Source: Dysgonomonas hofstadii (GTDB lineage: Bacteria; Bacteroidota; Bacteroidia; Bacteroidales; Dysgonomonadaceae). From it: 64,000 nucleotides of DNA. A program made the translations under genes and the position numbers. The DNA lies in assembly GCF_014196915.1 (NCBI RefSeq), contig NZ_JACIEP010000006.1, forward strand, positions 124,001 through 188,000, given 5' to 3'. Shown here piece by piece: positions 11,831 through 54,929 of this stretch. Under the pieces are notes generated by a model that was given only the letters and a program-made list of their open reading frames with translations, was not told the DNA's origin and ran no database searches. Position 1 is the stretch's first letter. Every line of letters starts with the position of its first letter.

Positions 11831-12020
11831 TCTATAGGATAAACAATGAGCAAATGTGATAATATGCCAATGTGCCAATAATGAATGATCTTTGAAAAAA
11901 ATAATGGTTGACAAGTAAACAAGATACGAGATACAAGAATTTTGTCAGTTCTGTCAGTTTTTTGTTAACTGAGTTGACTGCTAACTGAATTGGAGCGAAG
12001 CATAAATCGACGGAGTCAAA
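11831..12020. repeat. Composite dispersed-repeat locus 2
   Basis: The 487-base gap between glmS and the next gene holds repeat modules in this order: TTATCTATA, an AATGTGCCAAT-type run, GATCTTTGAA, GTTGACAAGTAAACAAG (11907-11923) joined directly to ATACGAGATACAAG (11924-11937), TTTGTCAGTT tandem (11941-11960), GTTAACTGAGTTGACTGC, and AAATCGACGGAG. The two joined modules are those that bracket the four-helix-bundle gene at 53729-54157. An 80-residue minus-strand frame across this stretch is not believed. Confidence 0.75.
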
Positions 12021-32456: not shown

Positions 32457-32472
32457 AAAAGAATTCAAGTTT

Positions 32473-32534
32473 ATTAGTATACTAGATGTTACGGAAAACA
32501 AACTAGTAAACTAGTAGACTATAAACTAGTAAAC
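32473..32534. repeat. Short-period repeat in the serC-serA spacer
   Basis: The spacer carries a run of 8-nt-period units, AGTAAACT/AGTAGACT (ACTAGTAAACTAGTAGAC and two further units). The same period and words (AGTAAACAAGTAGACAAGT) form the left flank of the four-helix-bundle gene at 53729-53761. Confidence 0.65.
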
Positions 32535-32536
32535 TT

Positions 32537-51750: not shown

Positions 51751-53724
51751 ATGAGTACTATACTAGATCCAAAAAAAGATTCAAAAATACCTGAAGGGCC
51801 ATTAGCAGAAAAATGGACCAATTATAAGGCTCACCAGAAGCTGGTGAATCCTGCCAACAAGCGTCGCTTAGACATTATTGTGGTAGGTACAGGCCTTGCA
51901 GGAGCATCGGCTGCCGCGTCTCTTGGCGAGATGGGCTTCAATGTGTTGAACTTCTGTATTCAGGATTCTCCCCGCCGCGCGCACTCTATCGCTGCACAAG
52001 GGGGTATCAATGCTGCAAAGAATTATCAAAACGATGGTGACTCTGTTTACCGTCTTTTCTACGATACAATCAAAGGTGGTGACTACCGTGCCCGTGAAGC
52101 TAACGTATACCGTCTGGCTGAAGTTGCGAACAGCATCATCGACCAGTGTGTTGCTCAGGGAGTTCCTTTTGCCCGTGAATATGGAGGCTTGCTCGACAAC
52201 CGTTCTTTCGGTGGAGCACAGGTGTCACGTACATTCTATGCCAAAGGACAAACAGGACAACAGCTATTGTTGGGAGCTTACTCTGCGTTAAGCCGTCAGG
52301 TACATAAAGGAAGTGTAAAACTTTACACCCGTTACGAGATGCTTGATGTTGTGCTTGTAAAAGATGAAAGTGGAGAAGAACGCGCACGCGGGATTATCGC
52401 ACGCAACCTTGTAACCGGCCACCTTGAGCGCTTTGCTGCTCACGCCGTAGTTATTGCAACAGGTGGATACGGAAATACATTCTTCCTTTCTACAAACGCA
52501 ATGGGATCGAACGGATCGGCTGCTATCCAGGCATACAAAAAAGGTGCTTATTTTGCAAATCCTTGTTTTGCCCAGATTCACCCAACTTGTATCCCTGTTC
52601 ACGGAGAATTCCAATCGAAACTGACATTGATGTCGGAATCGCTTCGTAACGACGGACGCATCTGGGTTCCTAAAAAAATAGAAGATTCGGAAGCTATCCG
52701 TGCAGGAAAGCTAAAACCGACTCAAATAAAAGAAGAAGACCGCGACTACTATCTGGAAAGACGTTACCCTGCATTCGGTAACCTTGTTCCTCGTGACGTG
52801 GCTTCACGCGCCGCGAAGGAAAGATGTGACGCCGGATATGGTGTAGGCTCTACAGGTCTTGCCGTATACCTTGATTTCTCATCTGCAATCCAACGCCTTG
52901 GACGTGATGTTGTAGAAGCACGTTATGGTAACCTGTTCCAGATGTATGAAAAAATAGTTGACGATAATCCATACGAAACTCCGATGATGATCTATCCGGC
53001 AATCCACTATACAATGGGTGGTATCTGGGTTGACTATGAGTTGATGACTTCCATCAAAGGTTTATTTGCCCTGGGAGAAGCTAACTTCTCTGACCATGGA
53101 GCTAACCGTCTGGGTGCATCTGCATTGATGCAGGGACTTGCCGACGGGTATTTCGTTTTACCTTATACTATCCAGAATTACTTATCCGATCAGATTTCTG
53201 TCCCTCGTTTCAGTACCGATCTTCCAGAGTTTGTTCAGACAGAGAATGCAATCAAAGAGAAGGTTGCTAAACTGATGAATATAAAAGGAAACCGTTCGGT
53301 AGACTCTATCCATAAGCAACTGGGAATTATCATGTGGGATTTTGTAGGTATGGCGCGTACAAAAGAGTCTCTTGAAAAAGCTATTGAAGATATCAAAGCC
53401 GTGAAAAAAGAATTCTGGACAAATGTACGTATCCCGGGTGAGGCAACAGATCTGAATACAGAATTGGAAAAGGCACTTCGTTTATCAGATTTTATCGAAA
53501 TAGGTTTATTAATGGCTTACGATGGACTTAACCGCAACGAGTCTTGTGGAGGTCACTTCCGCGAAGAATTCCAAACTCCGGACGGAGAGGCAATGCGTGA
53601 CGATGAACACTATTCATACGTGGCATGCTGGAAATATCAGGGTGATGACACAGCTCCTGAAATGGTTAAAGAACCTCTTGACTATGAGTTCGTAGTAAGA
53701 CAACAACGTAATTACAAAGCTTAA
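51751..53724 (+). CDS. frdA: Fumarate reductase/succinate dehydrogenase flavoprotein subunit
   Basis: 657 residues. It reduces fumarate to succinate (or the reverse) on a covalent FAD. The FAD-binding loop is [17 protein letters not shown] (about 47-62), with [18 protein letters not shown] holding the flavin-linking His, then the substrate region [11 protein letters not shown] and [19 protein letters not shown]. Succinate is a major end product in Bacteroidales, so the fumarate-reducing direction is likely. A foreign gene separates it from frdB. Confidence 0.96.
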
Positions 53725-53728
53725 ATCA

Positions 53729-53761
53729 GTTGACGAGTAAACAAGTAGACAAGTAAACAAG
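53729..53761. repeat. Left flank module of the four-helix-bundle gene
   Basis: A run of 8-nt-period units (GTTGACGAGTAAACAAG, then GTAGACAAGTAAACAAG) ends 8 bases before the ATG. A shortened form, GTTGACAAGTAAACAAG, stands without a gene at 11907-11923, and a near relative fills the serC-serA spacer. Confidence 0.7.
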
Positions 53762-53769
53762 TTTTTTTG

Positions 53770-54129
53770 ATGGGAACACATAAAGATTTAAAAGTTTGGC
53801 AAAAAAGTATCAACTTAGTAAAGTTGGTATATGTTGAAACTAAGTCTTTTCCTAAAGAAGAGTTATTTGGATTGATTTCTCAAATGAGAAGATCGGCCGT
53901 TTCAATTCCGTCTAATATAGCCGAAGGATTTGGACGGGGCTCGAAGAAAGAATGCGAACATTTCACATATATTGCTCTAGGTTCAGCATCTGAATTAGAA
54001 ACTCAGTTGATAATTTCTAAAGAATTAGAATATATAAAGAATGAGGAATATCAGACATTAAACCTTTTGCTTAGTGAAATAATCAAAATGTTATCAGCTC
54101 TTATTAATTCTATGAAGCCAAAAGAATAA
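53770..54129 (+). CDS. Four-helix-bundle protein (23S rRNA intervening-sequence-protein family)
   Basis: 119 residues from the ATG at 53770; a TTG 3 bases earlier is in frame. The family pattern is clear: THKDLKVWQKSINLVKLVY, FPKEELFGLISQMRRSAVSI, PSNIAEGFGRGSKKECEHF and an N/C helix pair. The family includes proteins encoded by insertions in 23S rRNA genes and the Avd accessory protein of diversity-generating retroelements. Here it splits frdA from frdB, and repeat modules touch both ends (53729-53761 and 54130-54157). No reverse transcriptase is near. Its function is unknown; nucleic-acid binding is inferred from Avd. Confidence 0.9.
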   Translation: MGTHKDLKVWQKSINLVKLVYVETKSFPKEELFGLISQMRRSAVSIPSNIAEGFGRGSKKECEHFTYIALGSASELETQLIISKELEYIKNEEYQTLNLLLSEIIKMLSALINSMKPKE

Positions 54130-54157
54130 CTTGTATCTCGTATCTTGTATCTCGTAC
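54130..54157. repeat. Right flank module of the four-helix-bundle gene
   Basis: Two copies of a 14-mer, CTTGTATCTCGTAT and CTTGTATCTCGTAC, begin on the base after the stop codon. On the other strand this reads GATACGAGATACAAG, found next to the left-flank module at 11924-11937. The gene-proximal ends ACAAG and CTTGT are inverted relative to each other. Confidence 0.75.
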
Positions 54158-54173
54158 CTAAAATAAAAAAACG

Positions 54174-54929
54174 ATGGAAAAACTAATAAATATAACATTA
54201 AAAGTTTGGCGTCAAAGAGGTCCTCAAGAGAAAGGAGCCTTTGAAACACATAAACTTGATGGCATTTCTACAGAAAGTTCATTTCTCGAAATGCTGGATA
54301 TTTTGAATGAAAAACTGGTAAATGAAGGCAAAGAACCTGTAGTATTTGATCACGATTGCCGTGAAGGTATATGCGGTATGTGTAGCCTCTACATAAACGG
54401 ACACCCTCATGGTCCAGACGAAGACATTACCACCTGCCAGCTTCATATGCGTAAATTTAAAGACGGGGAAACCATTACAGTTGAACCTTGGCGTTCAGCA
54501 GGCTTTCCTGTTATCCGCGACCTGATGGTTGACCGTAAAGCCTTCGATAAGATCATACAGGCCGGAGGATATGTGAACGTCAATACCGGAGGTATTCCTG
54601 ATGCCAACGCAATTCCAATCTCTAAAATAGATGCCGATGAAGCAATGGACTCGGCTTCCTGTATAGGTTGTGGTGCTTGTGTTGCAGCATGTAAAAACGG
54701 ATCGGCGATGCTGTTCGTTTCCGCTAAGGTAAGCCAATTGGCATTGTTACCTCAGGGACGTGTGGAAGCTGCCCGCCGTGCAAAAGCAATGGTAGCCAAA
54801 ATGGACGAACTTGGATTCGGTAACTGTACTAATACTCAGGCCTGTGAAATGGAATGTCCTAAAAACATCTCAATCAGTAATATTGCTCGCCTGAACCGTG
54901 AATTCCTGAAAGCAAAATTTAAAGATTAA
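54174..54929 (+). CDS. frdB: Fumarate reductase/succinate dehydrogenase iron-sulfur subunit
   Basis: 251 residues. The 2Fe-2S ferredoxin-like domain has [20 protein letters not shown] and a later TTCQLHM Cys. The C-terminal part holds the 4Fe-4S and 3Fe-4S ligands in [17 protein letters not shown] and [15 protein letters not shown]. It passes electrons from FrdC to FrdA. Expression now depends on read-through across the four-helix-bundle insert, since no separate promoter is evident. It ends at a strong terminator. Confidence 0.96.

Follow-up and report, generated by a model that had tools for sequence, protein, structure and literature searches.

What is a complete gene for a small four-helix protein doing between frdA and frdB, and how are the short repeated words on either side of it related to that gene? 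The question arises from a 64,000-nt stretch of Dysgonomonas hofstadii (the window; the genome is labelled G000 and the locus L001). A preliminary description had proposed a tiny mobile or homing-like cassette with no transposase of its own. The features of the locus, which encodes an intervening sequence protein (IVP), are collected in Table 1.

Table 1. Features of the frdA–frdB locus and gene-less arrays of the window
Feature	Positions	Strand	Description
frdA	51751..53724	+	upstream host gene, outside the element; FAD_binding_2 and Succ_DH_flav_C domains
left array	53728..53761	+	four 8-nt words, AGTTGACGAG TAAACAAG TAGACAAG TAAACAAG; from the sequence
IVP / four helix bundle protein gene	53770..54129	+	119 aa; PF05635, TIGR02436, relatives 2gsc and 2rld
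right array	54130..54159	-	four 7-nt words, inverted with respect to the left array; from the sequence
frdB	54174..54929	+	downstream host gene, outside the element; Fer2_3 and Fer4 domains
gene-less array	11908..11937	+	left-type 8-mers joined to right-type 7-mers
gene-less array	32466..32535	.	related ACTAG dialect, between two genes

The TAA stop codon of frdA occupies 53722–53724 in the sequence. Both the sequence and the profile scores place a complete 119-residue IVP-family gene where it was first proposed to be (53770–54129), and the run with an 8-nt period, which ends at 53761, does stop eight bases ahead of the ATG at 53770. Two 14-mers, CTTGTATCTCGTAT and CTTGTATCTCGTAC, begin at 54130, the base after the end of the stop codon at 54129; since they differ in the final base, they are near-copies and not the exact copies that had been described. 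Read on the other strand, the words of the right array have the form ATAC[A/G]AG and those of the left array are mostly TARAC[A/G]AG, words of the same kind. The IVP gene is therefore enclosed by two word arrays that are inverted to each other. Modules without a gene had also been reported elsewhere in the window, and they are represented by the two gene-less arrays of Table 1, the second in a related dialect.

For the left module pattern, 15 matches were counted in the window and a mean of 4.2 in shuffles. The right module is also above chance, as 0 matches are expected in shuffles of the window, and in the whole genome it was matched 13 times at up to two mismatches compared to 0 times for the pattern read backwards. 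The 14-nt left pattern AACAAGTAGACAAG was uninformative when searched with two mismatches in the whole genome (104 matches, 113 for the reversed control). The inverted similarity of the flanks at the window locus is moderate, being equalled by 3 of 200 shuffles and missing the cut-off, and it is only moderate because the left words are 8-mers and the right words 7-mers. Among the loci listed from the genome, ten distinct inverted arrays with this vocabulary and without a gene were recognised by eye, and paired modules lacking a gene are thus present beyond the frd junction. A further four-helix gene between copies of the same modules was sought in vain: the genome holds three IVP genes, each with a different dialect of words. 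By eye, three dialects follow in succession at 11861–11993 of the window, with AATATGCC/AATGTGCC words, the ACAAG array at 11908–11937 and CAGTT/AACTG words. Two of the ten gene-less inverted arrays (L017 and L019, contig C34 of G000) lie between tRNA-Ala and 23S rRNA in an rRNA operon.

Against PF05635, the window gene scores 142.5 bits (E 6.6e-42, cut-off 33.8) and against TIGR02436, 136.4 bits (E 4.1e-40, cut-off 24). Its solved relatives, 2gsc and 2rld, were each deposited with five chains, and Xanthomonas S23p is a homopentamer (PMC4990558). The same source, of 2016, gives the function of S23p proteins as not known. The profile matches of the window gene are PF05635 and bAvd, with no others; among them is neither a nuclease or endonuclease family, such as a homing element would bring, nor a Y1 tyrosine transposase of the RAYT kind. 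An identity as the Avd of a diversity-generating retroelement was rejected on a score of 26.3 bits, the cut-off being 80 (E 6.8e-6). The likeness is that of a distant protein relative, the neighbours here are frdA and frdB, and reverse transcriptase is absent. A defence reading was set aside as well, the window protein having no PADLOC match.

The frd site was surveyed in 25 Dysgonomonas genomes, 23 of them with FrdB, and spacers were counted with the stop codon included. A clean, gene-free frdA–frdB spacer of 9–15 nt is present in 7/23 (G001, G003, G006, G015, G017, G020 and G021), which shows the two genes adjacent and supports insertion. Spacers of 22–37 nt are found in another four (G004, G010, G023 and G024), and those of G004, G010 and G024 look by eye like array remnants. 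An IVP gene or its remnant occupies the junction in 12 of the 23 (G000, G002, G005, G007, G008, G009, G011, G012, G013, G014, G016 and G019), with a shortened frame in G012 and decay to 314 nt in G016. As judged by eye, the dialect is GTTGACGAG/TAAACAAG in G000, G005, G008 and G019, TTACGAG/TTACAAG in G002, G007, G009 and G014, and GTATACTAG in G011, G012, G013 and the decayed G016. The short A/T-rich spacers, also inspected by eye, display no clear target-site duplication.

Of 57 IVP loci found in the genus, 56 gave a protein and the 51 with at least 95 residues were placed in a tree. The 11 frd IVP rows, the G016 remnant not included, form one clade (support 92/87) that is split by dialect. 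Because the FrdA+FrdB and RpoB protein trees were weakly supported, a DNA tree of rpoB+rpoC+frdA+frdB was chosen for the hosts, several nodes of which are weak, down to 32. This tree places G016 with G005/G019 at 100 and then with G002 at 97, and it pairs G013 with the empty G017 at 100 and G011 with the empty G015 at 98. The frd IVP lineages are discordant with it, and filled and empty close relatives are adjacent (G011/G015 and G013/G017). A gene held at this spot by all relatives with a vertical phylogeny, put forward beforehand as the counter-case, is therefore not what is found. The proposed mobile cassette without a transposase survives in part, as an insertion that is patchy, given the clean spacers and discordant lineages, and lacks a same-module gene elsewhere.

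The element occupies the same site in relatives, patchily and in discord with a host tree of which some nodes are weak, as a homing element would, and this site fidelity fits the homing-like behaviour that had been suggested. So does a comparison of G005 and G019. Their IVP genes are identical (42/42 fourfold sites), and the frdA and frdB genes around them are 96% identical with fourfold identities of 0.84 and 0.82. Mismatches are zero over the IVP gene and rise across several hundred bases on either side, and the right array differs by one whole 7-nt unit. Co-conversion would leave such an identity tract; ordinary recombination would do so equally.

The IVP genes of the genus also lie at leuC–leuD, SDR–KDPG-aldolase, moxR–DUF58, trpB–trpE, hisA–hisF, hisF–hisIE and amidohydrolase–cyclodeaminase junctions, among others. 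The neighbour domains fit these names (one example of each checked), and the amidohydrolase beside the cyclodeaminase is taken to be hutI. At leuC–leuD, 9 of 23 full-length LeuD loci carry an IVP gene, some of them broken, and five have 19–33 nt between the genes; clean empty sites are found at leu as well as at frd. Both arms are kept around a deleted gene in G020, a different, G+C-rich hairpin is present in G012 and G006, and 99–110 nt of other sequence is present in G001, G017 and G023. The calls are resolved for the 23 LeuD loci except those of G009, G014 and G016. In G005 and G020, AATRTGCC words replace the AATTAGCA words on both sides; the leu arms therefore change dialect together.

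Flanks were tested at 50 of the 56 genus loci with 200 shuffles and a cut-off of 2/200, six loci having been dropped for a neighbour that was missing or distant. The left flank resembles the reverse complement of the right flank in 42/50 and the right flank directly in 13/50, and both neighbours are co-oriented with the IVP gene in 47/50. Of the three exceptions, two (L070 and L118) probably stem from miscalled ORFs; in the third, L072, the gene does run antisense to the ABC-transporter genes next to it. An IVP gene lies at the ABC-transporter junction both in L072 (G019), where it is antisense, and in L105 (G002), where it is in sense and broken (L105 neighbours by eye); with its arms inverted, the gene could be flipped by inversion at this junction.

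The architecture recurs across phyla. A search of genome contigs gave 582 relatives, the best 80 of which, one being the own locus of G008, come from Bacteroidota, Patescibacteria, Atribacterota, Spirochaetes, Deltaproteobacteria, Acidobacteria, archaea and others. At no more than 1/100 shuffles, the flanks of these best 80 are inverted in 57/80 as compared to 11/80 direct. Both neighbours, here mechanical ORFs, are co-oriented with the gene in 54 of the 61 loci among them where both lie within 250 nt. A 7-nt period marks the flanks (z 34 in the genus, z 33 in the best 80 of 582), accompanied by harmonics at 14 and 21 and by a lesser peak at 8 nt; the same analysis found none at 7 in coding DNA. 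Such framing, alike in many bacteria, suggests that the protein and its matching repeats are one genetic element. Two loci differ in their surroundings: in a Clostridia MAG (L208), the place of the inverted arrays around the IVP gene is taken by a long direct repeat of TTAGCGATAGGGCGGGACACCCGCACCCGAT type with nearly identical copies (direct score 45, z 27), and in a Gracilibacteria MAG (L167, 1677–1835) a 6S RNA match on the opposite strand directly precedes the IVP gene.

From these observations, the IVP gene may be considered as a fixed partner inside a cognate inverted array, accompanied by dispersed gene-less arrays in a REPIN/RAYT-like manner, a reading held with slightly less than even confidence. 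With REPINs and RAYTs (PMC3116915), likewise, a fixed gene stands next to repeats of its own flavour, a genome has several such flavours, and inverted doublets of each are dispersed. Here, the counterpart of such doublets, in the flavour that adjoins the gene, is seen in the ten gene-less arrays found by eye and in the dialect matching given below. The present system differs in having a four-helix bundle and no tyrosine transposase, and heptamer arrays in place of single REP palindromes.

The 23S rRNA intervening sequences (IVSs) have complementary sequences at their ends and are cut out by RNase III (PMC4990558). It is conceivable, if rather unlikely, that the loci are an mRNA counterpart of these, a tolerated selfish insertion in which the arrays pair in the polycistronic transcript and RNase III frees the IVP message by cleaving the stem. 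The Coxiella 23S IVS with its S23p ORF is alike in protein family, complementary ends, patchiness and transcribed setting (PMC4990558). The ends are complementary here too, as the RNA duplexes of the flanks are stronger than those of shuffles in 46/50 genus loci and the window arms reach -16.6 kcal/mol. The prevailing sense orientation and the two gene-less arrays in the tRNA-Ala to 23S spacer also favour an RNA-level explanation. However, no sign of selection for RNA-level pairing is present: at imperfect positions of the sense strand, G.U is not in excess over A.C in the genus (37 vs 39), and the best 80 of 582 go in the opposite direction (83 vs 122). In many gene-less arrays the two arms differ in dialect and pair poorly (by eye), and 23S rRNA was found in 0 of the 20 IVP loci scanned (19 of the 80 wide loci, mostly ones with odd neighbours, and L001). 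The window gene lies between frdA and frdB and not inside a 23S gene, and L001 has no rRNA match. Unlike the 23S IVS, the elements described here lie between protein genes of operons, end in arrays of 7–8-nt words and are joined by dispersed gene-less arrays of the same dialect.

The reading of the IVP gene as a fixed partner must also be weighed against the arrays being a general intergenic feature, made by slippage or by another transposase such as RAYT, with the IVP genes as passengers, an explanation that appears doubtful. A 7-nt period is indeed present, more weakly, in other spacers of the same loci (z 8 and 14), and 28/103 of these are self-inverted, as expected from dispersed arrays and equally if the arrays are a general feature. 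Hairpins of other dialects occupy the rpoB–rpoC spacers of G003, G004, G010 and G021, genomes without a PF05635 match. The gain or loss of a complete 7-nt unit that separates G005 from G019 and the 145-bp tandem hairpins of G008 can be counted on the same side. Against it, the IVP flanks are far more periodic, with a lag-7 identity of 0.50 compared to 0.34–0.36 in other spacers, and array dialect, some exceptions apart, tends to go with the IVP lineage present in the genome.

This dialect matching was obtained by counting five patterns in 25 genus genomes, with a reversed control of 0 or 1 per genome; the p-values ignore kinship, and the patterns were picked after the arms had been seen. Counts of ataCAAG are associated most strongly with the frd IVP of ACAAG type (p 0.0003), and less so with the IVPs of the SDR–aldolase (0.0007) and leu (0.0042) junctions. 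Those of ACTAG go with the ACTAG-type frd IVP (p 0.0015), those of ttaCAAG with any frd IVP (p 0.0011; TTAC type, 0.025) and those of AATTAGCA with the leu IVP (p 0.0017). The CAGT dialect is not specific, because the match to its own moxR IVP (p 0.024) is weaker than that to the hut IVP (p 0.0008). At least five frd-type words are present in 10/12 carriers of the frd IVP and in 0/13 non-carriers (Fisher 2e-5). With own-arm matches removed, the 18 high-quality genomes give 7/9 carriers vs 0/9 (p 0.002), and 6/8 vs 0/8 when one of each sister pair is removed (p 0.007). Dialect specificity among the 12 carriers has a permutation p of 0.002, or 0.003 without G019. The exceptions are G009, which carries the frd gene and none of the three frd-type patterns; G013, with 114 ttaCAAG matches yet an ACTAG-type gene; G001 and G020, with a moxR IVP and one CAGT match each; and G017, with 21 AATTAGCA matches and no PF05635 match. 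These exceptions and the p-values shared between lineages slightly lower the odds of the fixed-partner reading and of the wider proposal given below.

A role of the IVP gene in regulating the operon around it, such as in setting the FrdA:FrdB or LeuC:LeuD ratio, is highly improbable, for while the junctions often split subunits or steps of one pathway (domains checked at six junctions), the gene is patchy, decays (G016, G012 and G020), is absent in close relatives and sits in host pathways that vary from site to site.

If the IVP is the partner of its arrays, it may bind them as DNA, perhaps with one word per subunit, and a pentameric ring could read an array word by word. The protein might then help host enzymes to copy, convert or maintain the arrays. 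The prevailing co-orientation would be explained most simply by dependence of the IVP gene on read-through of the host operon, in which case sense insertions between cistrons would prevail. A wider proposal is put forward tentatively, in which IVPs might be the trans-acting partners of bacteria-wide, mobile or self-maintaining inverted heptamer arrays with lineage-specific dialects, the ring taking one 7-nt word per subunit. The 23S IVSs and intergenic heptamers would then be special cases of a transposase-less system.

Intergenic heptamer repeats include the STRR of cyanobacteria. Tandem, degenerate TAACTGA heptamers lie between genes in Beggiatoaceae, Cyanobacteria and Bacteroidetes, with no evident spreading mechanism (PMC4679880). 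In the arrays, as in these repeats, degenerate 7-mers stand in tandem between genes, within operons as well; the TAACTGA repeats, as portrayed there, are mostly direct and without an inverted partner or linked gene, whereas the arrays are inverted around an IVP gene and have many dialects (PMC4679880). The IVP family, heptamer repeats and REPIN/RAYT systems have thus been described already, and a link between IVPs and arrays was not found in the open-licence literature; a term search of PMC8305728 found nothing matching. An IVP bracketed by heptamer arrays at operon junctions of many phyla joins the question of S23p function to that of heptamer spread and makes both testable. Should the IVP bind its own words, the result would be a REPIN-like system built on a non-transposase protein, and one that lets genes enter operons between cistrons while the operons stay unbroken.

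Gene-less arrays have features of their own in the genus. A gene-less hairpin is present by eye in the rpoB–rpoC spacer of most of 20 genus genomes (L124–L143). Its dialect differs by species, being TTAGC, AATGTGCC or G+C-rich (by eye); at this one junction, therefore, one hairpin takes the place of another. A ~145-bp unit with an inverted array is repeated in tandem 2–4 times at several places in G008 (L256, 584–1041; L257, 506–815; L258, 359–522). Mosaic gene-less arrays of G005 (L261, L266, L268 and L269) have a left arm in the CAGT dialect and a right arm in the ACAAG dialect, and several of the G005 mosaics lie within an outer repeat of GGTAACAAAGGTAACA type (both by eye).
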